Origin: Desulforamulus ferrireducens
GTDB taxonomy: Bacteria > Bacillota > Desulfotomaculia > Desulfotomaculales > Desulfotomaculaceae
Reading direction: 5' to 3'
DNA: 64,000 nucleotides
Assembly: GCF_002005145.1 (NCBI RefSeq)
Contig: NZ_CP019698.1
Location: forward strand, 1-64,000
Positions within the stretch are counted from its first letter, which is position 1. Each line of letters begins with the position of its first letter. Shown here in pieces: positions 46,472 through 62,133 of this stretch. The notes under the pieces are model-generated. The model was not told the DNA's origin, searched no databases, and worked only from the letters and a program-made list of their open reading frames with translations. A program made the translations under genes and the position numbers.

Positions 46472-46762
46472 TTATAGTACTTCTTTTCTGCTTGGCAGGA
46501 TCATTTCTACATCAGTGTGTGGGCGGGGAATAACGTGAACGGAGATTAGTTCGCCAACTCGTTGAGCAGCGGCAGCACCGGCATCGGTGGCTGCTTTTAC
46601 AGCACCAACGTCGCCCCTTACCATTACGGTAACAAAGGCACCGCCTACTTTTTCATAGCCAATCAGATGTACGTTAGCGGCTTTTACCATAGCGTCGGCT
46701 GCTTCGATGGCACCTACTAAACCTTTGGTTTCGATTAATCCTAAAGCTTCAGATTTACTCAT
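46472..46762 (-). CDS. Microcompartment hexameric shell protein (BMC-H, PduA/EutM type)
   Basis: A 96-residue single BMC domain: [21 protein letters not shown] (part), [21 protein letters not shown] and [15 protein letters not shown]. The pore loop lies after the GYEKVG strand. AGGAGGA precedes the ATG. It is the last gene of the operon. BMC-H hexamers tile the shell facets and pass substrates through central pores. Confidence 0.95.
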
Positions 46763-46786
46763 TTTTGTTTCCTCCTAAGTGTTTTT

Positions 46787-47446
46787 TTATTTAACAATTT
46801 TAATTTTGGAGTCTGCTGTAAGATTGAAAGCATTAGCTTCTTCTGTATCAACGTGGAATTCCAGGGCAGAGTTGTTGTTAGCCCTGATGGCCACATGGGA
46901 GTAGGTTCCTCCCCTGGGGCCACCCACTTCAATGGTTACCTCTTCCCCATCGGTGACGCCAAAGCGTCTGGCATCTTCCAGGGTCATATGAATGTGCCGC
47001 TGAGCAATGATCACTCCTTGGGAGAGAATGACACTGCCCTTGGGTCCAATGAGGGTAATGCCAGGGGTTCCTGCTAAATCACCAGACATTCTCACCGGTG
47101 CAATGACACCCAGTTTAAAGCAATCTGCCTGGAGTATTTCCACCTGGGTTTCCGGCCTTACCGGTCCGAGGACACGCACCTTTTCAATGGCACCCTTGGG
47201 ACCACAAATGGTCAGGGTTTCCTTGCAGGCAAATTGACCGGGTTGGGACAAATCTTTGACTTTGGTCAATTGGTAGCCCGCACCAAACAAGGTTTCTAAA
47301 TCCCCCTGGGAAAGGTGAATATGACGGTTGGATATTCCCACGGGTATGGAGTCGGTATCAGCTTCCTTTGTTAAAATCCCCCCTTCTTGGATTGCTTCTA
47401 GCAGAAGGGCTGCTAAAGCGTCGTACCTTCCCACTCTAGTGTTCAC
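46787..47446 (-). CDS. pduL: Phosphotransacylase PduL/EutD2
   Basis: A 219-residue enzyme converting acetyl-CoA to acetyl phosphate inside the shell, recycling CoA. Metal-binding motifs SNRHIHLSQGDL and AQRHIHMTLEDA are the PduL hallmark. The N-terminal 20 residues (RYDALAALLLEAIQEGG) form an amphipathic helix like an encapsulation peptide. GTG 47446 overlaps the upstream ALDH stop; GTG 47434 has better spacing from AGAGG and may be the true start. Confidence 0.95.
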   Translation of the reverse strand: MNTRVGRYDALAALLLEAIQEGGILTKEADTDSIPVGISNRHIHLSQGDLETLFGAGYQLTKVKDLSQPGQFACKETLTICGPKGAIEKVRVLGPVRPETQVEILQADCFKLGVIAPVRMSGDLAGTPGITLIGPKGSVILSQGVIIAQRHIHMTLEDARRFGVTDGEEVTIEVGGPRGGTYSHVAIRANNNSALEFHVDTEEANAFNLTADSKIKIVK

Positions 47447-48920
47447 CTCTTTTTTTCAGCAGAGCAATAACCTCATTGACCACATTCATAATTTGCTCTT
47501 CGCTAACTGCACCGGTAGCGCATTTTTCTGCCACACAAGCTGCCACAGTGGAGGTTGTGTTTTCAGTGCAGTCTTTGATGCCATAGGCCACCCGTTTTTT
47601 ATTGATCAAGTGCAGTGGGGTAACATTATCGGAGGTGGCGCTGCCGCCCCAGGTACCACAGCCCAGGGTAAAGGCCGGTGCCAATCCGGTACTAATACCT
47701 ACACCACCGTGGGTGGAGGGAGTGTTAACCAAGATCCTGAAGACGGGTTTTTCAGAGAACTTCATAGCCATGGCAGGGTTTTCTGTATGAATGGCGAGGC
47801 TATGGCCCACTCCGCCGTTTTTCAAAAGTTTAATGCATAATTCACAGGCTTCTTCCCAGTCCTTCACGGTGTAGAAAGCCAAGACTGTGGTCAGCTTCTC
47901 GTAGGATAGGGGGTACTCAGGACCTACACCCTGTTGTTCGCCCAGCAGAACCTTTGTTCCAGCGGGAATGGTAATACCGGCGCTTTCGGCAATTACCGCC
48001 GCGGATCTACCAACAAATTTGGCATTCATGGCATGTCCACGAACAAACAGTTTTTGGGCAACCTTTTCGGTTTCAGCCGCTGACATGAAGTAACCACCCT
48101 GGCGTTTGAATTCTGCCACCACTTGATCGCGGATGCACTCTTCCACGATAACTGCTTGCTCTGAGGCGCAGATGGTACCATTGTCAAAGGTCTTACTGGT
48201 GATAATGTTTTGCACAGCCTTTTGGATATTGGCTGTTCTTTCAATATAGGCAGGCACGTTGCCGGGGCCTACGCCCAGGGCAGGTTTGCCGGCGCTATAG
48301 GCTGACTTAACCATGGCTGTACCGCCGGTGGCAATAATCATGTCCACTTCATCGCATTTCATCAGTTCATTGGTGGCAGCCATGGAGGGTTTGGAGATGC
48401 AACCAATGATATTGGGCGGTGCTCCCGCTGCCACGGCTGCTTCATTCATCAGTTTGGCAGCTTGCAGGGTGCATTTGAGAGCCGATGGATGCGGTGAGAA
48501 AACAATGCCGTTACGAGATTTAATGGCAATGATGGATTTGTAAATGGCGGTAGAAGTAGGGTTGGTGGAGGGAACAATGCCCAGTAACAGACCCACCGGT
48601 TCAGCTATTTCCACCACTTTATTCACGGGATCCTCACTGATGATACCAATGGTTTGCATCGGCTTAATAAATTTGTAAAGTTCGGTGGAAGCTAGTTTGT
48701 TCTTCATGGTTTTATCTTCCACTTTACCAAAACCGGTTTCTTCCACCGCCATCTTGGCCAAGGATACAGCATTTTCCTCTGCTACCTTAACCATATTCTG
48801 AATGATGCGGTCAATCTGCTCGCTGTTATATTTAGCCAGGGCAGCTTGTGCCTGTTTGGCTTGACGAGCAAGATTTCTGGCTTCTTGCAGTGATTGCAAA
48901 TCATAATCAAAGTTTTCCAA
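47436..48920 (-). CDS. cutF: CoA-acylating acetaldehyde dehydrogenase (CutF/PduP/EutE type)
   Basis: A 494-residue enzyme oxidising acetaldehyde to acetyl-CoA with NAD. Catalytic Cys251 sits in TFDNGTICASEQ. An N-terminal amphipathic helix (LQSLQEARNLARQAKQAQA) could direct encapsulation. The TTG start follows AGAGGG. It is one of two homologous ALDHs in the operon and the one with an intact active site. It works between CutC, which makes acetaldehyde, and PduL. Confidence 0.93.
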   Translation of the reverse strand: MENFDYDLQSLQEARNLARQAKQAQAALAKYNSEQIDRIIQNMVKVAEENAVSLAKMAVEETGFGKVEDKTMKNKLASTELYKFIKPMQTIGIISEDPVNKVVEIAEPVGLLLGIVPSTNPTSTAIYKSIIAIKSRNGIVFSPHPSALKCTLQAAKLMNEAAVAAGAPPNIIGCISKPSMAATNELMKCDEVDMIIATGGTAMVKSAYSAGKPALGVGPGNVPAYIERTANIQKAVQNIITSKTFDNGTICASEQAVIVEECIRDQVVAEFKRQGGYFMSAAETEKVAQKLFVRGHAMNAKFVGRSAAVIAESAGITIPAGTKVLLGEQQGVGPEYPLSYEKLTTVLAFYTVKDWEEACELCIKLLKNGGVGHSLAIHTENPAMAMKFSEKPVFRILVNTPSTHGGVGISTGLAPAFTLGCGTWGGSATSDNVTPLHLINKKRVAYGIKDCTENTTSTVAACVAEKCATGAVSEEQIMNVVNEVIALLKKRGEH

Positions 48921-48968
48921 TGTTCTCGTCCCTCTCTAAACTGACTTTACTTATTCTTACGGGTTTCA

Positions 48969-49553
48969 CTACCCCCGCTGGTAATACCCCATAAGTTTTT
49001 GGATTAGTAATTCCTTGTTGGCCTTGGAGATGGCTCGGCCTGCCAGGCCCAGATCCTTGTATTCTCTGGCCAGGTTCCGTAGTTTTACCACCGCCAGGGA
49101 GTTTAGGACCTCTTCAAGATTTTCTAAACCATATTCCTTAACAAAAGCATCCAGCCCCTCTTTATGCCATTGCTTCAACCCTATGGGCACATTCTGGGTG
49201 CTAGCCGGAACAACTTCCTTTGGCGGTTCCGTGGGTGCCGGCTCTTGGGGCGCCGACTCCTGTGGTGCTGGCCCTTGGGGTGCCGGTTGAAACATATCCG
49301 CTGTTTCCGAGTGGGGGCGAGGAATAACGTGATGAGAAACCAAGGATTGGGGAGCAAGCTGCTCAACGGCACTGACACCTGCTTCCACTGCTGCCTTAAC
49401 AGCCGCTACATCACCTGTCACGCTAATGGTTACCAAACCACTACCCACAAAGGTTCGTTCCACCAATTCCACCTGGGCGGTTTTGAGCATAACATCGGCG
49501 CAGGTGATAGCAAGAAGGAGTCCTTTGGTTTCAATAAGTCCTAGAGCTTGCAT
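48969..49553 (-). CDS. BMC-H shell protein with Pro-rich linker and SAP/Rho_N-like C-terminal domain
   Basis: 194 residues. A BMC domain at 1-90 ([34 protein letters not shown]) is followed by a Pro/Gln/Glu-rich linker of about 35 residues with repeated APQ motifs. A helical domain of about 70 residues follows; its LRNLAREYKDLGLAGRAI and KANKELLIQKL segments resemble SAP or Rho N-terminal folds, which bind nucleic acid. PduK- and EutK-like shell proteins also have C-terminal extensions. GGAGGGT precedes the ATG. The tail domain call is by eye. Confidence 0.88.
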   Translation of the reverse strand: MQALGLIETKGLLLAITCADVMLKTAQVELVERTFVGSGLVTISVTGDVAAVKAAVEAGVSAVEQLAPQSLVSHHVIPRPHSETADMFQPAPQGPAPQESAPQEPAPTEPPKEVVPASTQNVPIGLKQWHKEGLDAFVKEYGLENLEEVLNSLAVVKLRNLAREYKDLGLAGRAISKANKELLIQKLMGYYQRG

Positions 49554-49564
49554 GCTTTACCCTC

Positions 49565-50212
49565 CTATGGCTGCGCCAGTTGTTCGGCCCAGTTGGCCGG
49601 ATAGGTGACGTAGAAGAGCTTAACATATCCGGAGGAACTCCAGGTTACCTTGCTGCCTTTGGGTACAAAGAGGACATCACCCTGGCTGGCTTCATAGGTT
49701 TTACCATTGATGGTGACGGACAGGCTTCCTTCGAGAACAATATCAATCTCTTCATAACACAATTCCCAGTCAAAGCTGGACTTCTCAATGGTTAAAAAGC
49801 CTGCACTCATTTGGGAATTATCTTTGCTAATGACCTCACGGTAAGCTACCTTGGTGCCGGGAGTCCCTGTGTCAAAGGGTTCGTAAGTCACTGTTCTGCC
49901 ACGCACAATTTTCAGTCCACTGGCATCATCCCCTTCACTAAGGAAGGCCGGGCTGAGTGCCGGGACACCTGCCAGGAGGTTGTGGGTTAATACCGCTTTA
50001 ACAATTTGATAGATCACATCTCTATCAATGGTCTGTTGGCCTTGACAGATGTTTGGTGGGGCAGCGATCGTTTCGGTGGAAAAGGCCACACCCAGTTCTT
50101 TGGCCAAATCCCGGGCTGCCGGGGTTATAATGGTCTTGTCTGTCACTGCTAACACCCTTTGGCCCTTTTCTGCTGCTGCCTTTACTTCATCTGCGCAAAC
50201 CAATCTCTTCAA
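49565..50212 (-). CDS. eutQ: EutQ-like cupin (acetate kinase)
   Basis: A 215-residue protein. The N-terminus (MKRLVCADEVKAAAEKGQR, ITPAARDLAKELGVAF) is the microcompartment-type module also seen in EutT. The C-terminal cupin contains CYEEIDIVLEGSLSVTINGKT in part and GDVLFVPKGSKV. EutQ makes acetate and ATP from acetyl phosphate in Salmonella, which would complete the energy-yielding branch after PduL. The TTG start has AAAGGAGGT upstream. Confidence 0.9.
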   Translation of the reverse strand: MKRLVCADEVKAAAEKGQRVLAVTDKTIITPAARDLAKELGVAFSTETIAAPPNICQGQQTIDRDVIYQIVKAVLTHNLLAGVPALSPAFLSEGDDASGLKIVRGRTVTYEPFDTGTPGTKVAYREVISKDNSQMSAGFLTIEKSSFDWELCYEEIDIVLEGSLSVTINGKTYEASQGDVLFVPKGSKVTWSSSGYVKLFYVTYPANWAEQLAQP

Positions 50213-50256
50213 GGTACCACCTCCTTTCGCTTACTGCTGGAGAATTATGACCGGTA

Positions 50257-50805
50257 CTAGTAAAGGGTTTTCCATAATCTATCAGAAGGCGAAGCAATTA
50301 CCTCGGTGTCCACCAGCAAGCCCTTTTCCAAGGCCACCGCTGTCCCGGCCTCAATACCGGCCTGCACCGCGGCCACATCGCCGGTGAAGGTAAAGTAGGA
50401 TTTGCCACCTATGCCGCTGCCCAAGCGCAATTCCAACGCCTGGATATCGGCGGCTTTCAGTGCTGCGTCAGCAGCAATAATCATGGTAGCCAGGGAAAAG
50501 GATTCCATAATGCCCAAAGCTCCCATGCCCTCCGGCAGGGTGGTGGCAGTGATGGCCGGAAAAACGGCGGGATGAACATTGGGCAGGATAAAGCTATCTA
50601 CCAAATATTCCCCTGCTGTTGCCACGCCTACGTTGACAGAGCTGTCTACAGCAGCCACATCGCCATACACAATGGCAATATATTTACCCGGACAGACAGG
50701 GGTAGCACTAACTATCTCTACAGCGGCTGTTTTCAGCATGAGGTCGGTGGCATAAATCCCCCTGGCAATACTTGTAAGCTCAATCATACCTATGGCGTTA
50801 TACAT
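50257..50805 (-). CDS. pduT: Tandem-BMC trimeric shell protein, PduT type
   Basis: 182 residues with two BMC domains (about 1-90 and 93-180). Cys38 in TPVCPGKYIAI is at the exact place of the PduT Cys that ligates a 4Fe-4S cluster in the trimer pore. The second domain reads ALGIMESFSLATMIIAADAAL. It overlaps pduS by eight bases, the classic PduS-PduT pairing, suggesting electron transfer across the shell. Confidence 0.92.
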   Translation of the reverse strand: MYNAIGMIELTSIARGIYATDLMLKTAAVEIVSATPVCPGKYIAIVYGDVAAVDSSVNVGVATAGEYLVDSFILPNVHPAVFPAITATTLPEGMGALGIMESFSLATMIIAADAALKAADIQALELRLGSGIGGKSYFTFTGDVAAVQAGIEAGTAVALEKGLLVDTEVIASPSDRLWKTLY

Positions 50806-52135
50806 ACGAACCCACCTTTATCACAATAGATTGTTCCGTAACTTCCGTTACCGTACCAGCCAGGCTGGCGTGCACCGCTGCTCCCAGGGCGTTATCCGGA
50901 ATCCGACCAATCAGTTGACCAGCTTGAACCTCATCCCCCACGGCCACCACAGGAACGGCCGGCGCACCGATATGCTGTCTTAAGGGGATGGAAAGGGTTT
51001 CCGGTTTTAAGGTCAGCTCTGTCAGAGGTGCTGCTCCATCAAACTCTGTTAAACCAATTTTGGCAATGAGACGTTTGCTGGGAATCAGGCGATAGCCTCT
51101 GGCGGAGCGTGCTTCAAATGTCGTCTCTGTGGGCTGGTAGCGCAGTCCCTGTTCGGCCAGCTTACGTTTATAAATAATGTTGATCGATTTAGGATGCAGA
51201 TTAGCCGGACAAGAGAATAATTCACAGATATTACATTCACAACATAATTGGGCAAACTTTAACTGTTCTAAGTCTTGCAGGTTATAACTAAGGGCCCGCA
51301 TGGTTTTATGTGGCTGCAAACTATGTCCCAGCAGATAACGGGGACAAAGATCGGTACACATCCGGCACTGCTCACAGGCGGTTCTGCTAATTACCCTGGC
51401 CCGCTGCAGGTTCACTGTTTTTTTGCGAATGAGATGGTGATCCTTTTTCAGCAGCACGTAACCCTTGCTTTTCTTGGTAACATAACCTTCCAGGTTAGAC
51501 ATCACCGGTCCCATCATGGGGCCACCGTCAATGACGGCATAATCAGCTAAATTTGTTACTCCGCATTGCCGCAGGAGATCCTGCACAGCCATACCCACCG
51601 GAACTTTCACGGTGATGGGTTTGGGAATATCCCCGGCAATGGTGAGGTAGGTGTCGGTTACCGGTTGTCCGGCCATGGCCCGATAAATGTTGAGAGCAGT
51701 TTCCGAATTTATGACCACACAGCCCACCTTAAGTGGGATGGAGGCTTCGGGCACAATTCTGCCGGTCAGTTCATAGACCAGCACCTGCTCGTCCCCGGCG
51801 GGATAAACATCCGGCAGTTCCTTTACTGCCATGTACTGGCTCAGCCCCAGGGCGGCAATTCTTTCCCGCAGAATGCGAATAACTTCTTTATGTTTGCCCT
51901 TAATGCCAATGATGGCCTGACGGGCTTCAATATGTCTGCCGGCAGCTTCCAAGCCCTTGATGATTTCCTCTGGATACTTGGCCATGAGCTGCTGATCCAC
52001 CCGGAGCAGTGGTTCACACTCGGCTCCATTGAGCAAAATATATTCGGCTTGGGAGGTTAGTTTGGCGTGCGTTGGAAAACCTGCACCACCCGCCCCAATA
52101 ACTCCGGCTTCTTTAATTAGGTTCAGTAAATCCAA
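50798..52135 (-). CDS. pduS: PduS-like flavo-iron-sulfur oxidoreductase (RnfC family)
   Basis: 445 residues. An N-terminal flavin and NADH site of RnfC/Complex-I 51-kDa type (GAGGAGFPTHAKL, LLNGAECEP) is followed by two 4Fe-4S motifs, CEQCRMCTDLCP and CCECNICELFSCP. A C-terminal biotinyl-like region (VGDEVQAGQLIGRI) ends the protein. In Pdu systems PduS reduces cobalamin; here no B12 enzyme is present, so NADH recycling or cluster reduction through PduT is likelier. TTG start. Confidence 0.92.
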   Translation of the reverse strand: MDLLNLIKEAGVIGAGGAGFPTHAKLTSQAEYILLNGAECEPLLRVDQQLMAKYPEEIIKGLEAAGRHIEARQAIIGIKGKHKEVIRILRERIAALGLSQYMAVKELPDVYPAGDEQVLVYELTGRIVPEASIPLKVGCVVINSETALNIYRAMAGQPVTDTYLTIAGDIPKPITVKVPVGMAVQDLLRQCGVTNLADYAVIDGGPMMGPVMSNLEGYVTKKSKGYVLLKKDHHLIRKKTVNLQRARVISRTACEQCRMCTDLCPRYLLGHSLQPHKTMRALSYNLQDLEQLKFAQLCCECNICELFSCPANLHPKSINIIYKRKLAEQGLRYQPTETTFEARSARGYRLIPSKRLIAKIGLTEFDGAAPLTELTLKPETLSIPLRQHIGAPAVPVVAVGDEVQAGQLIGRIPDNALGAAVHASLAGTVTEVTEQSIVIKVGSYV

Positions 52136-52155
52136 GTTATTCCACCCCCAGATTG

Positions 52156-52416
52156 TTAAAACAGGCAGTCTTCGTCTATAATGCCGACAATGGCAGCATC
52201 TACGGGCACATCGTCCCGGCCCAGCATTCTACGGGCTGAACTGCCGGTACATACCAGCACCCGTTCGCCAAAGCCAGCACCGATGGTATCAACGGCTATG
52301 ATTAGGCGCCCCGCGTCAACACCGCCAAGGACTTCCACTAACATAAATTTTAGCCCGACCAGGGACTCAGCCTTCCTGGTTGCCCAGATATTATCAATTA
52401 CCTTGGCTGCAAGCAT
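52156..52416 (-). CDS. eutN: Pentameric shell vertex protein EutN/CcmL
   Basis: An 86-residue EutN/CcmL/PduN protein that closes the vertices of the shell: MLAAKVIDNIWATRK, GLKFMLVEVL, AVDTIGAGFGERVLVCTGSSAR and DAAIVGIID. AGGTGAT precedes the ATG. It is the only vertex gene in the operon. Confidence 0.95.
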   Translation of the reverse strand: MLAAKVIDNIWATRKAESLVGLKFMLVEVLGGVDAGRLIIAVDTIGAGFGERVLVCTGSSARRMLGRDDVPVDAAIVGIIDEDCLF

Positions 52417-52422
52417 ATGCGA

Positions 52423-52716
52423 TCACCTGTTTCCAACTTTATTTTGGATATCTCTAATAGCCGCTTCCACAGCTGCCGTGTCTCCGAAGATGGCAATTAA
52501 AATCATATTTTGCGGGCAATGACCCCTGATATCCTCCACCACTACCCCGGCTGCTTTTTCCGCGATATCGGTGGCAAAAATCATATCAATGAGCCTTCCT
52601 TGCACCAACCCCACTGCATCTACATTTTCAATGGTGGTTGTTCCAGGTGAGCCTTTGCGCCGCATTAGAATATCCAAGGTTCCCTTGGAAGGGGATTTAA
52701 TAATGCGGTATTCCAT
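52423..52716 (-). CDS. Divergent BMC shell protein, GrpU-like
   Basis: A 97-residue BMC-fold protein with a non-standard N-terminus (MEYRIIKSPSKGTLDILMRR). Core helices are DAVGLVQGRLIDMIFATD and DTAAVEAAIRDI. The loop EDIRGHCPQNMI contains Cys67. From memory, the glycyl-radical-associated shell protein GrpU has a comparable GHCP loop binding an iron-sulfur cluster at the pore. The match is by eye; other explanations are a permuted BMC protein without cofactor. Confidence 0.7.
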   Translation of the reverse strand: MEYRIIKSPSKGTLDILMRRKGSPGTTTIENVDAVGLVQGRLIDMIFATDIAEKAAGVVVEDIRGHCPQNMILIAIFGDTAAVEAAIRDIQNKVGNR

Positions 52717-52737
52717 GGGTTTTCTTCACTCCCAATC

Positions 52738-53580
52738 TCACAGGATTTCCTGGGTGCAATTCAGCGCAATGCCCAAAGGTGTAACAAACATGGGATTTTG
52801 CGGTTTAAAAGTGGGAAGACCGGTTTTTTTCGCAATGATGTCTTCAATTCCTTGCAGGCAGCAGGTTCCGCCCACCAAATAGACTTCCTTAACATCAAAA
52901 TCCCGGGTATGTTTGCTGATAATAGAAGACACCTTTTCAATGACCGGTTGCAGGACCGGCATCAATTCCCGATGGTTTTTAAAGTCACGTTTATATTGAT
53001 CTGCCTGGTCAAAGCTCATTCTGTAGGCACCGGCTATCACCAAGGAAAAGTGCGTGCCACCGGTGGGTTCATCGGCTACATAAATCACCTTACCATCCTT
53101 GAGAATGGCAATACCCGTAGTGCCACCACCTATATCCACAATGGCACCGTCTTTAATTTTTAACACAGCATTGGCTGCGGTAGGCTCATCCAACAAATTA
53201 GTAATTTCAAAGCCCGCCCCCTCGACCACGTGCTTAATTGCACCTGAGTCCAGGCTAAAGGTGCCCGGCGGCAGAGCCGCTGCGGCATAGATTAGTTCTG
53301 TGCCCAGCTTTTGTTCCAATTCGTGTTTTAGCTCTCTCACTATCCGGATGGCCCCAATATAGTCCACCACCATACCGTCCTTAACCACGCTGGCATAACG
53401 ATAGGCGCCGGCCACCGGCTGATAATTCTCGTCCAGCACAGCCAGAACAATATAGGCTGTACCCAAATCTACACCGGTATAATAAACGGAGGACTTATGC
53501 AGGAGGGGTTTGTTAATGACCCGCTCAAAATCACGTACCAGTTGATCACAATATTGAAAGGTCGTATTTACGGTTTCCAT
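52738..53580 (-). CDS. eutJ: EutJ-like Hsp70-family chaperone
   Basis: About 280 residues, with the actin/Hsp70 ATPase fold: YTGVDLGTAYIVLAVLD, VDIGGGTTGIAIL and YLVGGTCCLQGIE. There is no substrate-binding domain, as in EutJ. It probably assists enzyme assembly or reactivation in the compartment. The ATG at 53580 after GGGGGGA is preferred to the upstream GTG. It overlaps the EutT-like gene by 13 bases. Confidence 0.9.
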   Translation of the reverse strand: METVNTTFQYCDQLVRDFERVINKPLLHKSSVYYTGVDLGTAYIVLAVLDENYQPVAGAYRYASVVKDGMVVDYIGAIRIVRELKHELEQKLGTELIYAAAALPPGTFSLDSGAIKHVVEGAGFEITNLLDEPTAANAVLKIKDGAIVDIGGGTTGIAILKDGKVIYVADEPTGGTHFSLVIAGAYRMSFDQADQYKRDFKNHRELMPVLQPVIEKVSSIISKHTRDFDVKEVYLVGGTCCLQGIEDIIAKKTGLPTFKPQNPMFVTPLGIALNCTQEIL

Positions 53581-54227
53581 TTTCGTCCCCCCAGACATTT
53601 CCACATAATCATGCAGAGTATATTAATAATTAGGTAAATCTTATCGATGAGGTCTTGGCGCGAACAGTTTTGCTGCTCCTCCTGCCAGTAGCTTGCCAAA
53701 ATGGCAGGTTCCAACTCACATAGGGAAGCACGCAGGTAATTCAGTAAAGCAATCTCTTTGCCATTCTCCAACCTCACATGAAACTCACTGATGTCCAGGT
53801 GTTTTTCCAGGTTGGCCGAGCGTTGTTTGATTTCTTCCTCGGACCACTGCCAAAACTCTATGCTGGCCGGTGTCTGTTGCTCCCTGGCGGCCTGGCAGAC
53901 ATTTTGGAAGCACCGGGCTAAAGCCAGGATATCCTCTGCCAAATCAGTCTCTGAAGAATGTAACAGTTCCGCCGCGGTGAGGAAAAATAAAGCTTCGACC
54001 CTTTCCAGCTTTCTCAGTAATTTTAAGTCAGACCGGTTTGCCCCTGGCTCTTCCTGGTTGGCCGATATTTGCTGGTTAGTGGCAGGAGCGGTTACCAGCG
54101 TGACTCGTCTGTCAATCAAGAATTGGCGGGCTCCCGGTGTAATTTTTGTCTCTGGCTCCAGCACATATGAAGTGAAGGGCTCTCTTTTATATAGCTCCCG
54201 TAATTCCATTTCGGTGATAAATTTCAT
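53568..54227 (-). CDS. EutT-like protein lacking the Cys metal motif
   Basis: 219 residues. The N-terminus (FITEMELRELYKREP, ITPGARQFLIDRRVTLV) and the C-terminus (EIALLNYLRASLCELEP, IDKIYLIINILCMIMW) match EutT, the cobalamin adenosyltransferase of ethanolamine use. The His-Cys-Cys-Cys metal cluster of Salmonella EutT is not seen, and no cobalamin enzyme lies in this operon. It could be a repurposed EutT or the one serving B12 enzymes elsewhere. Confidence 0.75.
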   Translation of the reverse strand: MKFITEMELRELYKREPFTSYVLEPETKITPGARQFLIDRRVTLVTAPATNQQISANQEEPGANRSDLKLLRKLERVEALFFLTAAELLHSSETDLAEDILALARCFQNVCQAAREQQTPASIEFWQWSEEEIKQRSANLEKHLDISEFHVRLENGKEIALLNYLRASLCELEPAILASYWQEEQQNCSRQDLIDKIYLIINILCMIMWKCLGGRKWKP

Positions 54228-54314
54228 TGCCCACCTACCCCTTTTAAATCCCTTTGACCAGAGAAATACAATCTATATCAGGAAGTACTCCCGAGACCAG
54301 GGCAAAATCAGCCG

Positions 54315-54776
54315 CTACATGGTCTCCCTGCCTTTGAGCACTTTCTTATTTTCCAAGTAACTCAGTAACTCTGCTACGCCTGTACCATCCGTTAAGGAAA
54401 GGTAAAAGTAGGGTTCGGCAACCCCTATTCTCTTTAACTGTTGCCGGCATAGCTCCCTATTCTCCGGAGCCAAATCAGCCTTGGTAACCACGCCCACCAC
54501 CGGACAGGTAAAGGTTTTGGCAAAGCCCGGTGGGTATACTTCTCTGGGGTTGGCTTGATCCACCAATATTAGCAGCAGGGCTGCCCCCTGGGCTGTGGCA
54601 ATCAGATATTTATACATCCAAGCATTTTCCAAATAGGCTCCCGGTGTATCAATGGTATGGGGGCCGTAAATAACATCCTGTGTCTTTTTTAAGAGTCTTG
54701 CCGCATTATTTATAATATTACACAGGGTGGACTTGCCGGCTCCGCTTGGCCCCACCACCATAATGCGCTTTTTCAT
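54315..54776 (-). CDS. eutP: EutP/PduV-family GTPase-like protein
   Basis: 153 residues. Walker A GPSGAGKST lies at 9-17 and DTPGAYLEN is the G3-like motif. VVTKADL is the guanine-specificity region. EutP has acetate-kinase activity in some species and PduV links compartments to filaments in Salmonella. The ATG overlaps the stop of the shell gene upstream. Confidence 0.88.
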   Translation of the reverse strand: MKKRIMVVGPSGAGKSTLCNIINNAARLLKKTQDVIYGPHTIDTPGAYLENAWMYKYLIATAQGAALLLILVDQANPREVYPPGFAKTFTCPVVGVVTKADLAPENRELCRQQLKRIGVAEPYFYLSLTDGTGVAELLSYLENKKVLKGRETM

Positions 54777-55126
54777 GTGCGGGTAATCATGGCCGGGGTA
54801 AAACCCAGCAGCTTTTCCAAGGTGTCATTAATGGCTAGCATAGCATTCTCCACGCTGGCCACATCGCCGGCTATAACCAGGGAACCGGTAAAACGATCCA
54901 GAAATCCGATCTCCACGTCTGAGGTCTTAGTGGCTATATCTGCCGCGATAATGGCAGCTTCGCAGGGAGTCAGGGTGGCAATGCCAATGGCTCCCTTTTC
55001 TTCAATGCCCAGACGTTCGTAGAGTTCCGGTACGGGTGAGGCGATAATGTGAGCCAGCGTCATTTGTTTGCCTGGCACGGATTCTTGAATAATCCGTCTT
55101 TTGTCAAATTCATCAGCCACTCCCAT
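54773..55126 (-). CDS. eutS: Circularly permuted BMC shell protein, EutS/PduU type
   Basis: 117 residues: DKRRIIQESVPGKQMTLAHI opens the protein and forms the beta-barrel plug typical of EutS/PduU. GAIGIATLTPCEAAIIAADIA and EIGFLDRFTGSLVIAGDVASV follow. The order is permuted relative to PduA. It overlaps eutP by four bases. Confidence 0.93.
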   Translation of the reverse strand: MGVADEFDKRRIIQESVPGKQMTLAHIIASPVPELYERLGIEEKGAIGIATLTPCEAAIIAADIATKTSDVEIGFLDRFTGSLVIAGDVASVENAMLAINDTLEKLLGFTPAMITRT

Positions 55127-55145: not shown

Positions 55146-56099
55146 TTAGTGCCTAATTATTTGCACCTGTAAGTCATATTCCTTAATAATGGCCTCAATT
55201 CTATCCAGTTCCGCTGCCTGATAGCTTAGATCTTCGGTAATGGCATAGGTTAGATCCAACTGCTTATATTTGTTGATGCCCAGCTTGTGGTAGGGCAACA
55301 AGTCAATACCTTGAAAATTCTTGTAGATTTTAAAGCCTTGGAGAAACTCCATGGTGCCGCGGATGGTTTCTTCACTATCATTAAGCCCACGAACTAAAGG
55401 CATCCTTATTTTCACCTGATAACCCCGGCGGATTAGCTCGGTAAGATTCTCCAGGATACGCTCATTGCGCACCCCTGTTAGTTCATAATGCCTGTCAGAA
55501 TCTATATGCTTCAAATCATAGAGGAACAAATCTATAAACGGAGCCATCTTCAGCAGGGTTTCCAGTTTGGTATAGCCCGAGGTTTCTATGGCTGTGTGGA
55601 TACCCAGCCTTTTGCATTCCGTCAGCAGGTTGGTGGCAAACTCCGGCTGAGCCGTCACCTCCCCACCCCCCAGGGTCACTCCTCCACCTGAACTCAGGTA
55701 GAAGAGTGTGTCCTGTTGGATGATCGCCAAGACTTCGGAGATGGTTTTGTCTGAGCCTACAATGGATAGGGCCCGTTTGGGGCAAACAGATTCGCACTTA
55801 CGGCAGCCTACACAGTCAATGTTTCTCTTAACTTTATGCCGTGGTTCTGATTCACCCTGAAAATAATGGATTTGGACAGGACAGACAGGAATGCAGCTAC
55901 CACACTGGATACAGAGATCTTCCTGATACATCACCTGGTATTTTCTCTCCAGACCCTCGGGGTTAGAACACCATTTGCAGCGCAGTGGACAACCCTTGAA
56001 GAAAATCAAGGTCCTTACCCCCGGTCCGTCATAGATGGAATATTTCTGGACATTGAAGATTCTCGCTTTTCTTTCGATAATGCTACTGCCCGTACTCAT
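55146..56099 (-). CDS. cutD: Choline trimethylamine-lyase activating enzyme (radical SAM)
   Basis: About 317 residues. The radical-SAM motif CPLRCKWC is followed by two extra 4Fe-4S motifs, CIQCGSCIPVCP and CVGCRKCESVCP, as in glycyl-radical activases. GGGVTLGGGEVTAQPEF is the SAM-binding GGE region. It installs the glycyl radical on CutC. The ATG at 56099 (AAAGGGA upstream) is preferred; an in-frame extension to 56183 would overlap cutC. Confidence 0.94.
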   Translation of the reverse strand: MSTGSSIIERKARIFNVQKYSIYDGPGVRTLIFFKGCPLRCKWCSNPEGLERKYQVMYQEDLCIQCGSCIPVCPVQIHYFQGESEPRHKVKRNIDCVGCRKCESVCPKRALSIVGSDKTISEVLAIIQQDTLFYLSSGGGVTLGGGEVTAQPEFATNLLTECKRLGIHTAIETSGYTKLETLLKMAPFIDLFLYDLKHIDSDRHYELTGVRNERILENLTELIRRGYQVKIRMPLVRGLNDSEETIRGTMEFLQGFKIYKNFQGIDLLPYHKLGINKYKQLDLTYAITEDLSYQAAELDRIEAIIKEYDLQVQIIRH

Positions 56100-56128
56100 C
56101 CTGTCCACATCCCTTTCTATTACTATCC

Positions 56129-58678
56129 CTAGAAGTGATCCAGCACAGTTCTGCTGATAATTTCGTCCTGTACTTCTTTGCACAGTTCTACGAAGTACGC
56201 GCTATAGCCAGCTACACGAATGATCAGATCCCGATATTTTTCTGGTTCCTTCTGTGCTTTTTTCAATACCTCGTTATCAACATAGCTGAACTGCATCTGC
56301 CCGTTGCCGAGGATAGAGGCTGTTCTCAGCAGGGTGATTAAGCCATTTTCCCCTTCGGGAGTTTCCAGAATGCCGCGTAGCAGTTTAAAGTTATGCACCA
56401 TACCAATATTCATGGATTCACAGCTTAGCTTACTAACTGACTTGATAATGGCTGTGGGACCCAATTTATCTGCGCCCTGGGTGGGACTAATACCATCGGA
56501 CAGTGGCGTCCAATCCAGACGTCCATTGGCAGAGGCCCCGGTAATTTCCCCGAAGGGGGTGTTGTTGGAAATGGAAAGGGTACCGTGGCTAAAGTGCGAA
56601 TACAGCATTTTAAATTTACGGTGGGTTCTTTCCGTCCAGGTGATAATATCTGCGGCAATCTCATCCACATAGTCGATATCATTACCATACTTGGGTGCGT
56701 TCAGGCAATCGGTGCGCAGTTCTTCATAGCCCACAAAGTTGGCTGCCAGGGCATCACGCAATTGCTTAAGGGTATATTTCTTTTCATCAAAGACCAGTTT
56801 TTTAATGGCAGCCATGGAATCGGCATAGGTGCCTAAGCCAGAGAAGATTAGGCCGGGGCCGTAATTAATGACCGCGCCGCCATTGGTAACGTCGGTACCT
56901 TTTTCCATACATCCTTCCACCAGGATGGACATCAGCGGCTTGGGTGCCAGTTCTCTATGCACCCGTTGACTTACCAGGGTACCGATGGCAGACATGCGAA
57001 TAATATGCTCAATTTGCTTTTTAACCGCTGCATCAAATTCTTCATAGGTCTTAAAGTTATCCAAATCACCGGTGTCCAGACCTTGTTTGGTGCCATGCCA
57101 CTTCATCACGCCGCGGTTGAGTACGAATTCAATGGCAATGGGCCACTGGGTATAACCGGTGGAAGTCCATTGATAGATGCGCCCAGACTTTTGTGGTTCC
57201 ACACAACCCATCATGCAATAATCCCGAGCATCCTCAATGTCAAAGCCCTTGGCCAGCATCATTTTGATATGGGCATCATCAAAGTGGCAGGCGGGGAAGC
57301 CTAGTCCCGCTTTCACCACTTCCACAATTTTCTTTAAGTATTCCTGTGGTGATTTATTATGAATCCGGCAAGCCAGGGAGGGTTGATACATCCTGGTCAA
57401 ACGAACGGCATCCATAATTAGGTAGGTCAGCTCGTTGGTGGCATCCCCACCGGTTCTTTTTTGACCGCCCACGGTACAGTTGACAAAGGGCTGGTAACCG
57501 GCAAAGTATTTTGCCCCCGACTCACTGGACAGCCACATAACCTCGGAGCACTTAATAATAAAGCAGCTTAATAACTCAAAGGCTTCCAGTTTGTTCATAC
57601 GTCCGGCTTCCAGGTCAGCCTTAAACATGGGATAAATATATTGGTCCAGGCGTCCCAGGGAGATACCGGTTTGGTTTTCTTCCACCACAAACAAAGATTC
57701 CAGGGTCCAGATGGACTGGAGCGCTTCATGGAAGGTACGGGGTGGGTTAGCCGGTACATTGGTTAAGATATCGGAAATCTTGTACAGTTCTTTTTTGCGC
57801 ACGGCATCCGTCTCTTTGTCCGCCAGTTCCTTGGCATAATCGGATAGCCGTTTGGCATAGGTCAGGATACCGTCACAGGTTTCTATGCACGCTTTATAGA
57901 AGTAGATCTTGTCAATGTCCTCAGGGTTTTCCATGGACAGCTTGCTCAGTCTTTCCACGGCTTCCTGGCGGACGCCATTAATGCCCTTTTTAATCAGGAT
58001 GATGTCATAACCCGGGCAGGTGTCCCCGCCGCCATTAACCTGATGGTAAGATAGATCACTGACATAGGCTTCCCCGGAAAAGGACCAAACACCGGCTTCT
58101 TCATATTGCTGCTGGCAAATTTCGTCCAGGCTTCTGCCTTCCCAGAAGGGGAAAATCTCTTCCCTTAATATACGCTTGTCCTCTTCACTAATTTCAAAGG
58201 GGTCCTGAGGTCTGGTGGACATGGTATCCAGCTCATCCCTTACCCATCTCCAGGCAATATCCGGTGAAAAGGCGCCGGCCCTCGGCTTGCCGCAGGGATG
58301 TCCGACAATCAGTTCATCATCTTGAATCAACAGGGGAGCAGTTTCACAGGCCCTTCTAAAGCACTTGGCCCGTAGTAAAATCTTGGGTAAACCGGGATTT
58401 TCCTTGGTTACCTCGGTAAAGGCAATGGCCCGGTAAATACTCACACTGGGCTTAACCTTTAAGTAGTTGGCCCGCAACCTCTCCAAACGTGGTGTAAGAC
58501 CGGTAATTTCCCCCTCAAAGGCCGGGGATTTTGCTTCAGTTGCACAACTGGTTTGCGAATCGTTGGCAGCTAATTCCTTGGAAATTCCCTGGAACAGCTT
58601 TAAAATAGCAGCAGTTTCTTCCGGGGATAAATGTTTAGTGGCCTCCGCAAATCTGCTGGTGAATTCCTTTATATCCAA
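56129..58678 (-). CDS. cutC: Choline trimethylamine-lyase (glycyl radical enzyme)
   Basis: 849 residues; cleaves choline to trimethylamine and acetaldehyde. Key positions: Asp219 in [11 protein letters not shown], Cys492 and Glu494 in [12 protein letters not shown], Gly824 in [12 protein letters not shown]. Each is offset by three from Desulfovibrio alaskensis CutC (D216, C489, E491, G821). [16 protein letters not shown] lines the choline pocket. An amphipathic N-terminal helix ([17 protein letters not shown]) plus linker probably directs encapsulation. The TTG start follows GGAGGAAG. Glycerol dehydratase and pyruvate formate-lyase are excluded by these residues. Confidence 0.96.
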
Positions 58679-58710: not shown

Positions 58711-59847
58711 TTAAAAGGATTTTTGGTAAATAGCTATCAGGTCTTCTTTAGAAGGCTTTCTAGGATTGGTCGGGGTACAACGATCCTGCAGGGCCAGCTC
58801 TGCCATGTTAGCCAGTTCTTGCTGGAATTTGCTTTGATCTATACCCAGCTCCCGCAGCCCGTTCTGAATGCCCAGGGATTTTTTCAGGTCCTTAACGGCT
58901 TGCAGGAAATTAACCGTGCCCTCCCGGTAAGTCCGGGCCGGTAATTGTAAAACGGCGGCCAATCTAGCGTATCTTTCAGCTACCCGTTTATCCTTGGGGT
59001 CATTTAAATTGGCGTTATATTCTAACACCGCGCTAAGTAGCAGGGCATTGGACCGTCCGTGGGAAAGGTGAAAGGTTGCTCCCAAAGCATGGGCCAAGCT
59101 ATGGTTAATCCCTAAATTAGCATTGGTAAAGGCCATACCCGCTAAGCAAGACGCCTTTTGAATACGTTCTCTGGCACAGGCATTACCGGTATCGTTGTAG
59201 AGGGTGACGAGATTCTCAAAAATTAATTGCACTGCCTTTTCTGCCAGGGCATCCGTGCAGTAGGTAGCTTCGGTGGAAACATAGGCTTCAATGGCATGTA
59301 CCAGCGCGTCCATACCGGTATCCGCCACCACCTGCTGAGGCACGTGTTGAATACAGGTGGAATCCAGAATAGCAATATCCGGAGCCATCCAATCATCCAC
59401 CAGGCAAATCTTTTGTCCATCGGCAGTAATGACCGAGAAGTTGGTCACCTCTGAGCCGGTACCGCTGGTGGAAGGAATGGCAATAAAGAGTGGTTTGCGG
59501 AATTCCTCCCCGGCTGCCTTGCTAAACTGCCAGAGGGAGTACAAGATGCCTTTAGCAGCATCAATGACCGAGCCTCCGCCTAAAGCAACAATGGTATCCG
59601 CCTGAGTTTTCAAGTAGCTTTGCATGCCGGCGGCAATAACCTTTACATCGGGGTCGGGACGCACTTCGGTAAAAACATCCACCTTTATTCCTGTTTCCTG
59701 TAAATAATCAATGGTTTTTTGCAGATAACCCAGTTTTTCCATGATGGCATCCGAAACAATAAAGGCACGGTTACCTTTAACTTCCTTAAGATATTCCATG
59801 GAGCCCTCACAGAAATAAATCTTGGGCTTAATCACAAACTGTTTCAT
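58711..59847 (-). CDS. cutO: Iron-dependent alcohol dehydrogenase (EutG/PduQ/CutO type)
   Basis: 378 residues of the group III alcohol dehydrogenases. GGGSVIDAAKGIL is the nucleotide loop; STSGTGSEVTNFSV and GMDALVHAIEAYVS follow, and the metal ligands include His in NHSLAHALGATFHLSHG. It reduces acetaldehyde to ethanol and regenerates NAD for the dehydrogenase inside the shell. It lies between cutC and the variant ALDH. Confidence 0.92.
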   Translation of the reverse strand: MKQFVIKPKIYFCEGSMEYLKEVKGNRAFIVSDAIMEKLGYLQKTIDYLQETGIKVDVFTEVRPDPDVKVIAAGMQSYLKTQADTIVALGGGSVIDAAKGILYSLWQFSKAAGEEFRKPLFIAIPSTSGTGSEVTNFSVITADGQKICLVDDWMAPDIAILDSTCIQHVPQQVVADTGMDALVHAIEAYVSTEATYCTDALAEKAVQLIFENLVTLYNDTGNACARERIQKASCLAGMAFTNANLGINHSLAHALGATFHLSHGRSNALLLSAVLEYNANLNDPKDKRVAERYARLAAVLQLPARTYREGTVNFLQAVKDLKKSLGIQNGLRELGIDQSKFQQELANMAELALQDRCTPTNPRKPSKEDLIAIYQKSF

Positions 59848-59870: not shown

Positions 59871-61367
59871 TTACTTGAGTTGTTTAAGTAACTCTGTCAA
59901 CAATTGATTTAATTCTTCAATGCTGCCAATGGAGTATTCCCTAGCCGAACAGCGTGATCCAACGGCCGTTGCACATTGGCCAGCCTTTACACTACTACCC
60001 TTGATATCCTCCAGCTGTCGCACCCCGTAACCCACTTTACGGATGTTAATTAGATTCATGGGTGTGACATTGTCAGAGGTATAGCCGCCGCCCGCCGCGC
60101 CGCAGCCCAGGGTGAGGGCCGGGAAGAGGTTAGTGGTGGCGCCGATCCCCCCTAAACTGGAGGGGGTGTTGATCAATACACGGGAAACTGGTTTTTTAAG
60201 GGCAAATTCCCGAATGACCTGCTCATTGCGGGAGTGGATGACCAGGGTGTGTCCCATCCCTTCGTTGACCAGCAATTCAATACACTTTTCACAGGCATTG
60301 AGCCAGTCCTTTTCCACAAAAAAGGCCAGCACCGGGCAGAGTTTTTCTCTGGCATAGGGATTGGTGGCAGTCACATATTTTTGTTCTGAAATAAGTACGG
60401 TGGTATTTTCCGGCACCCGCAGGCCTGTGCGCTGTGCTATTTCTATGGCCGATTTCCCCACTAATTCGGGATTGATACTGCCATCCCGGCGGAAGAAATA
60501 TTGGCTGAGTTTTTCCGATTCCAGGGCAGACATAAAGTAAGCTCCGCATCGCTTTAACTCTTGCCTTACCTCATCAGCAATGCACTCCTCAGCCACGATG
60601 GATTGTTCTGAGGCCGAGACAATGCCGTTATCAAAGGTCCTGCTGGCAATAATATCTGCCACAGCCTTTTTGATGTCCGCCGAACGTTCAATAAAGGCTG
60701 GTCCGTTGCCCGGGCCACCATAGATAACAGGTTTGCCGGAGGAGTAGGCTGCCTTCACCAGCTTCGGCACACCGGTTATTAAAACCAGAGATGTGTCTTT
60801 GTGATTCATCAGGGCCACTGTGCCGTCCACCGCCTGGGTGTGTAAATAGCCAATGGCTCCGCTGGGTAAACCACTTTCCTCCGCAGCCTCAATGAGTATA
60901 TCCAGCACCTTGGCAATGGATTTTTTGGCCTTGGGGTGGGGTGCAATAACAATGGCATTGCCTGATTTAATGGCAATTAGTGTCTTATATATGGTGGTGG
61001 ATACGGGATTGGTGGCGGGAGGCAAGGCGACAATTACCCCTACCGGCACCCCAATGTCCATGGTCTTCTTTTCTTTGTCTTCAGCAATAATACCGACCAC
61101 TTTAAGATCCTTGATTCGCCGATAGAGAAAGTCACTGGCAAAAACATTCTTGATCAGCTTGTCCTGCCATTTGCCAAAGCCGGTTTCCTCCTGAGACATG
61201 ATGGCCAGTTCTTTGGCGTGCTTAAAGGCCGCGGCAGCCATCCGACCAACTATTTGATCCAGTTTTTCCTGAGGAAAGGTGGCTAATATCCTTTGCGCCT
61301 CCCGAGCATTTTCCACCAAAATCCGAGCCTCTTGGACGGAGAGCAAATCATTGTCTATTCTGTGCAT
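59871..61367 (-). CDS. cutB: Aldehyde dehydrogenase homologue with Ser in place of the catalytic Cys
   Basis: 498 residues, alignable without gaps over the N-terminal half with the second ALDH of the operon. The catalytic segment reads TFDNGIVSASEQ: residue 251 is Ser (codon TCG, positions 60615-60617) where the partner has Cys251. The rest of the fold, including YGGPGNGPAFIERS and TPSSLGGIGATTNL, is intact. An N-terminal amphipathic helix is kept. It is probably inactive as a CoA-acylating dehydrogenase and may have a structural or regulatory role. The gene symbol is given by position in the operon and is tentative. Confidence 0.88.
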   Translation of the reverse strand: MHRIDNDLLSVQEARILVENAREAQRILATFPQEKLDQIVGRMAAAAFKHAKELAIMSQEETGFGKWQDKLIKNVFASDFLYRRIKDLKVVGIIAEDKEKKTMDIGVPVGVIVALPPATNPVSTTIYKTLIAIKSGNAIVIAPHPKAKKSIAKVLDILIEAAEESGLPSGAIGYLHTQAVDGTVALMNHKDTSLVLITGVPKLVKAAYSSGKPVIYGGPGNGPAFIERSADIKKAVADIIASRTFDNGIVSASEQSIVAEECIADEVRQELKRCGAYFMSALESEKLSQYFFRRDGSINPELVGKSAIEIAQRTGLRVPENTTVLISEQKYVTATNPYAREKLCPVLAFFVEKDWLNACEKCIELLVNEGMGHTLVIHSRNEQVIREFALKKPVSRVLINTPSSLGGIGATTNLFPALTLGCGAAGGGYTSDNVTPMNLINIRKVGYGVRQLEDIKGSSVKAGQCATAVGSRCSAREYSIGSIEELNQLLTELLKQLK

Positions 61368-61409: not shown

Positions 61410-61700
61410 TTATAAATCCAAATCATATTTGGCGATAATCTTTTCAATTTCAATATGCGGCCGGGCAATGACCAGGGAGCAATAAACCTTGCCCACTTTG
61501 CTGGCTTCTTTAACGCCAGCTTCCACAGCCGCTTTCACCGCACCTACATCGCCACGTACCACGACGGAAACCAAACCGGAAGCCACGTTTTCGTAACCAA
61601 TCAATTCCACGTCCGCAGCTTTGCACATGGCATCCGCAGCTTCAATTACCGAAACCAGGCTGTAGGTTTCAATGAAGCCCAGGGCATCATTTTTGTTCAC
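61410..61700 (-). CDS. BMC-H shell protein
   Basis: A 96-residue BMC domain: NDALGFIETYSLVSVIEAAD, AADVELIGYENVASGLVSV and [15 protein letters not shown], ending in a short acidic tail. The GTG start is preceded by GGAAAGGGG. It is paralogous to the shell genes at 46472 and 61738, with a different pore-side sequence. Confidence 0.95.
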   Translation of the reverse strand: MNKNDALGFIETYSLVSVIEAADAMCKAADVELIGYENVASGLVSVVVRGDVGAVKAAVEAGVKEASKVGKVYCSLVIARPHIEIEKIIAKYDLDL

Positions 61701-61737
61701 GCGGATTCCCCTTTCCTAACTAATCAGCTGTTCCGCA

Positions 61738-62034
61738 TCAAGCATCAATATCGTGTTTGGAAACAATCTTGCCCACCGGTTTAATTGGTCGCGGCATAAC
61801 GTTGTAGGCAGTAAGTTCACCAATGGCAGCCGCAGCAGCTGCGCCTGCTTCCACCGCTGACCTCACTGCTGCCACATCGCCTTTGACCATCACGGTGACA
61901 AGCCCGGAACCCATATTCTCATAGGAAACAAGGGTAACGTCAGCAGCTTTCAGCATGACATCCGCCGCTTGAATGGCCGGCACCATACCTCTTGTTTCAA
62001 TCAGACCCAGCGCTTCCTCGCCAGAGTATTTCAT
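61738..62034 (-). CDS. BMC-H shell protein
   Basis: About 98 residues: [38 protein letters not shown] and KGDVAAVRSAVEAGAAA. The ATG at 62034 is preferred, since the in-frame upstream codons add an unrelated MREKGVVS. It is the first shell gene of the operon and likely a major facet component. Confidence 0.94.
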   Translation of the reverse strand: MKYSGEEALGLIETRGMVPAIQAADVMLKAADVTLVSYENMGSGLVTVMVKGDVAAVRSAVEAGAAAAAAIGELTAYNVMPRPIKPVGKIVSKHDIDA

Positions 62035-62133
62035 CGAGACAACCCCTTTTTCTCGCATTACTTCATCGTTCAGCCCGCTCAGGCCTATATAATCAGGATA
62101 GTAAGCTCATGTGTTAAATAATTTAGTTGATTA

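Follow-up and report, generated by a model that had tools for sequence, protein, structure and literature searches.

A Cys-less aldehyde dehydrogenase beside cutC in GRM1 choline microcompartment loci, a candidate retired enzyme kept as a building part

The window, that is, the whole stretch of 64,000 nucleotides from Desulforamulus ferrireducens analyzed here, carries a GRM1-type choline-utilization microcompartment locus on its minus strand (Table 1). The locus combines a CutC recognized by TIGR04394, BMC genes and two aldehyde dehydrogenases (ALDHs), one of which, CutF, bears Cys251; the other, CutB, does not, and is the subject of this study.

Table 1. Features of CutB and of the surrounding locus (positions in the window)
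Feature	Position	Strand	Remarks
CutB-position ALDH, Cys-less putative pseudoenzyme, 498 aa	59871..61367	-	intact ORF, ATG start; TIGR02518 match
TCG codon for Ser251, catalytic Cys position	60615..60617	-	Cys in 0/83 orthologues
Val200, replaces second Gly of TGG cofactor-loop motif	60768..60770	-	all Cys-bearing ALDHs compared have Gly here; each of the 83 CutB proteins has Val, Ile or Arg
Asn120, oxyanion position, retained here	61008..61010	-	Ser in 52/83 CutB; role from PMC4762007, position by motif
Glu341, conserved catalytic-site Glu, retained	60345..60347	-	80/83 CutB
His373, conserved base, retained here	60249..60251	-	His in 77/83 CutB, Gln in 6/83
C359-x-x-C362	60282..60293	-	83/83 CutB
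C-terminal helix 481-497 after disordered linker, encapsulation-peptide-like	59877..59927	-	predicted (AF2 model); conserved amphipathic tails across CutB
CutF, Cys251 paralogue (codon 48168-48170), presumed active acetaldehyde dehydrogenase	47436..48920	-	TIGR02518, 726.8 bits, above cutoff
CutO, iron-containing alcohol dehydrogenase	58711..59847	-	best match is to AdhE residues 458-864, its alcohol dehydrogenase portion
CutC, choline trimethylamine-lyase	56129..58678	-	TIGR04394, 1588 bits
CutD, activating enzyme of the radical-SAM type with a ferredoxin domain insertion (start uncertain)	55146..56183	-	PF04055, PF13353, PF12838
Two shell proteins (BMC) encoded upstream of CutB (61410-61700, 61738-62058)	61410..62058	-	PF00936
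Remaining GRM1 locus: more BMC proteins, EutN pentamer, PduS/RnfC-like, PduT-like, EutJ/EutP/EutQ-like, CutF, PduL	46472..55126	-	PF00936, PF03319; PduL and RnfC models; EutJ/EutP/EutQ-like names given from reading the translations alone

Read on the minus strand, which the earlier note had not given, positions 60620-60609 are gtc tcg gcc tca and encode V250, S251, A252 and S253, so that the TCG codon at 60617-60615 indeed places Ser at the position of the catalytic Cys. The paralogue of the same operon aligns with CutB without a gap as far as residue 251 (46% identity overall) and has Cys251 within TFDNGTICASEQ in this pairwise alignment, as had been claimed for it. CutB scores 662.5 bits against TIGR02518 (EutH_ACDH; acetylating acetaldehyde dehydrogenase, EutE type), above the curated cutoff of 620.1, and departs from proteins of this type in two marks, namely, Ser251 in the FDxGxxCxSEQ motif and TGV in place of the TGG cofactor loop. 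A search of the genome, one contig of 3.24 Mb, with CutB at E <= 0.001 gave three matches: CutB itself, its paralogue and a third match that is partial and weak (28% identity, E 1e-4). Ser251 is neither a sequencing error nor a product of chance, since TCG lies two base changes away from TGC or TGT and the loss of Cys is clade-wide, being common to orthologues in dozens of genomes.

Orthologues were collected both from CutC-based loci on genome contigs and from CutB-based matches in whole genomes, which together gave 83 distinct proteins of the CutB position. Of these, 71 carry Ser at residue 251, 8 carry Pro, 3 Ala and 1 Val; none has Cys, which is present there in all 175 active-type ALDHs compared (66 close CutF relatives, 43 GRM2 or GRM2-like enzymes from single-ALDH choline loci, 46 of EutE type and 20 AdhE). 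Ser, whose fixation the earlier note had proposed to check, is therefore not fixed; the absence of Cys is. Further losses accompany it, as Gly200 of the cofactor loop is replaced by Val, Ile or Arg in all 83 CutB proteins and Asn120 by Ser in 52, the window copy retaining its Asn. When the same test was applied to each group, 16 of 64 family invariants, constant throughout the Cys-bearing ALDHs, were broken in CutB versus 1 of 68 in CutF, 4 of 69 in GRM2 enzymes and 10 of 83 in AdhE, and many of those broken in CutB (120, 122, 197, 200, 251, 253 and 370) lie near the active site as judged by sequence motif. A regional shift of conservation from the active site to the rest of the protein did not reach significance (101 of 449 circular shifts were as extreme).

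These substitutions suggest that CutB lacks enzyme activity. Related enzymes become inactive when their catalytic Cys is exchanged for Ser or Ala (PMC5311937, PMC4762007), and mutants of Cphy1178 without the His are inactive, this residue being needed for activity (PMC4762007). We infer inactivity from these mutants of relatives and from active-site residues that were placed by sequence motif rather than by superposed coordinates. No Cys that is both specific to CutB and near the site could be found to substitute for Cys251, as C344 and C359 are common to the Cys-bearing GRM2 enzymes and C362 to many EutE enzymes. The C-x-x-C pair at 359-362 is present in 83/83 CutB, 3/43 GRM2, 15/66 CutF, 32/46 EutE and 0/20 AdhE proteins.

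It might nevertheless be argued that CutB has become a sensor of a ligand (CoA, NAD(H) or an aldehyde), or that it performs a different chemistry with Ser251 as a weak nucleophile. Such a role would account for the retention of Glu341 (80/83), His373 (77/83) and Thr374 (83/83) and for Ser being the commonest residue at 251. We consider it improbable, however, because Pro, Ala or Val takes the place of Ser in several lineages, which excludes Ser as a fixed new nucleophile, because Gly200 is always replaced and Asn120 often so, because Cys-to-Ser or Cys-to-Ala changes inactivate relatives (PMC5311937), and because the Cys residues at 344 and 359, shared with GRM2 enzymes, offer CutB no stand-in of its own.

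Since the CutB label had initially been assigned by the absence of Cys, columns 119-123, 197-201 and 249-254 were excluded from the trees. CutB, including the window copy, nonetheless forms one clade (support 100/100) that is sister to GRM2 CutF (100/99), and the step from Cys to non-Cys requires a single change on the tree, with the residue at 251 changing 6 times. GRM1 CutF falls elsewhere in the tree, among EutE and AdhE-type enzymes. L019 and L020, two GRM2-like enzymes from Bacillota, group with EutE and not with the GRM2 sister clade.

The earlier description of the gene as having an intact frame and a conserved product is borne out by the intact ORF of 498 aa with its ATG start and by a dN/dS of about 0.15. 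Across 475 pairs from the 55 loci that carry both genes, the median dN/dS was 0.155 for CutB and 0.191 for CutF, and dN of CutB was about 1.2 times that of CutF; the pairs are not independent of one another. One could regard CutB as a decaying, functionless relic that is carried along in the operon, given that its active-site residues decay stepwise and that the gene is missing in Paenibacillaceae. The selection data argue strongly against this, with intact ORFs and a low dN/dS maintained over long divergence in many genomes of two phyla, and we regard such a relic as very improbable indeed. The single loss, its clade-wide extent and purifying selection rather support the maintained pseudoenzyme candidate that the earlier note had put forward. 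One in-frame stop codon each was seen in two ALDH relatives, L261 (G730; with Cys) and G675:C1:1265169-1266641.

The AlphaFold2 model of CutB (mean pLDDT 89) consists of a predicted ALDH fold whose closest solved structure is 3k9d (55% identity, TM-score 0.87-0.96), followed by a linker at residues 463-480 with pLDDT under 50 and a helix at 481-497. An amphipathic C-terminal helix is kept throughout the CutB clade, and the model predicts such a helix tethered through a flexible linker, the mark of BMC encapsulation peptides.

In a set found mostly without using CutC, cutC is immediately downstream of 50 of the 52 Cys-less copies, the other two being at contig ends, and for 58 of the 59 Cys-bearing ALDHs of the same set it is not. 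The active partner ALDH varies: it is CutF in the main Bacillota group, a member of a different EutE branch in the Desulfobacterota loci and, in genomes G427 and G718, a member of a third ALDH branch sited in a separate BMC locus. Thus, CutB remains linked to cutC irrespective of which active ALDH accompanies it, and the partners belong to at least three lineages.

This pattern bears on the idea that CutB is an obligate heteromer or regulatory subunit that forms mixed tetramers with Cys-bearing CutF and tunes activity, stability or encapsulation. Both proteins share a fold, 46% identity and an operon, related BMC ALDHs are tetramers (PMC5311937), and 55 loci carry both genes. The constancy of CutB and cutC despite a phylogenetically changing active ALDH argues against a dedicated CutB-CutF heteromer, however, as do locus L231, in which CutB is present and CutF was not seen in the stretches read, and the Paenibacillaceae, which have CutF without CutB; we therefore judge a heteromer unlikely, if less so than the sensor or chemistry proposal.

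The composition of GRM1 loci varies in further respects. In four Paenibacillaceae loci (L035, L038, L044 and L056), cutO, cutC and cutF are present and CutB is absent, indicating that CutB is not universally needed. Divergence of the CutC N terminus was not seen in these CutB-less loci, where it is conserved as elsewhere, so that a specific contact between this N terminus and CutB is unsupported. In one of them, CutF of Paenibacillus alvei DSM 29 (L038:18090-19587) is split over two overlapping frames by a frameshift or an assembly error, and CutB was not found in the locus. Most Clostridiaceae GRM1 loci (L199-L245, L081, L083) have no CutO between CutB and CutC, which suggests that loss of CutO occurs more easily than that of CutB. 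L231 and L304 (G687) mark a shortened GRM1 locus in which CutB and CutC are retained, CutF being absent from the stretches read; the other ALDHs of the G687 genome are of the EutE and AdhE types. G042 apparently has two GRM1 loci on separate contigs (L249, L250, L306, L307), each with CutB and CutF.

Our results lead us to favor, as on balance probable, the view that CutB is a former enzyme now serving a structural, non-catalytic purpose: as an oligomer in the core, it would cross-link CutC and other cargo or anchor them to the shell. CutB would be the former acetaldehyde dehydrogenase of the choline microcompartment, shares its lineage with the one active ALDH that GRM2 loci possess, and would have lost its catalytic Cys and its cofactor-loop Gly once, in the GRM1 ancestor. 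A phylogenetically different ALDH, here CutF, presumably oxidizes acetaldehyde in the sampled loci, while CutB would have been kept folded, with its encapsulation-type C-terminal helix, beside cutC, and would serve as a tetramer that cross-links the core or as a component for encapsulation. Recombinant CutF of the Klebsiella GRM2 system enlarges CutC complexes, and its authors propose that it is a tetrameric core cross-linker (PMC6971018); since this protein is of the group nearest to CutB, a physical role that outlasted the chemical one is the reading we prefer. Our data establish the residues, the single origin, the sister relation, purifying selection, the synteny and the change of active partner, from which we infer the lack of activity, oligomerization, encapsulation and cross-linking. 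Against a pure scaffold stand Glu341 and His373, which are mostly retained and which a scaffold would not need, as well as the CutB-less Paenibacillaceae loci, the unchanged CutC N terminus in these loci and the non-significant regional test of conservation.

Of the three roles that the earlier note had offered for the pseudoenzyme, a scaffold thus appears to fit best; partnership with CutF is weakened because the active ALDHs paired with CutB come from three or more lineages, and a different chemistry at Ser251 is disfavored by Pro, Ala and Val at this position and by the invariable replacement of Gly200. It is plausible, though somewhat short of probable, that CutB has more specifically become a protein dedicated to core assembly and derived from a pathway enzyme, the original ALDH having been functionally replaced by at least three lineages and its body kept beside cutC. 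If true, CutB would be the metabolosome counterpart of the enzyme-derived scaffold proteins of the carboxysome. To our knowledge, metabolosomes have no dedicated adaptors of the carboxysome kind; if CutB is a scaffold, it would illustrate how they can acquire an adaptor by retiring an enzyme and would offer a handle for cargo loading into choline microcompartments. With the pattern of partner replacement seen here, the scaffold and heteromer proposals can be tested apart from each other.

The basic finding is not new, as Axen, Erbilgin and Kerfeld described in 2014 that GRM1 loci carry a second AldDH whose catalytic Cys is replaced by Ser or Pro (PMC4207490), and Sutter et al. marked the second copy of GRM1A and GRM1B as 'putatively inactive' in 2021 (PMC8217296). 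In the literature searched, we found neither an experiment on this second ALDH nor a function for it. Relative to that literature, our analysis adds the single origin of the clade, its sister relation to GRM2 CutF, the loss of Gly200 and the swapping of partners.

Compared with the Cys-less second AldDH of GRM1 loci (PMC4207490, PMC8217296), CutB has the same locus type, the same position and the same replacement of Cys by Ser or Pro; it does not differ in kind from the copies of these two studies, to which we add Ala and Val at this position and, in quantitative terms, the clade and its additional lost invariants. GRM2 CutF of Klebsiella and E. coli 536 resembles CutB in belonging to its sister clade, in lying upstream of cutO-cutC, in its C-terminal amphipathic helix and in its sequence (57-60% identity) but, unlike CutB, retains Cys251 and Gly200 and is the sole ALDH of its locus. 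GRM1 CutF shares the TIGR02518 family and the operon with CutB, whereas it has Cys251 and belongs to a different branch near EutE- and AdhE-type ALDHs. The Listeria ALDH 3k9d, which provides the closest solved structure, differs from CutB in that its catalytic Cys is present.
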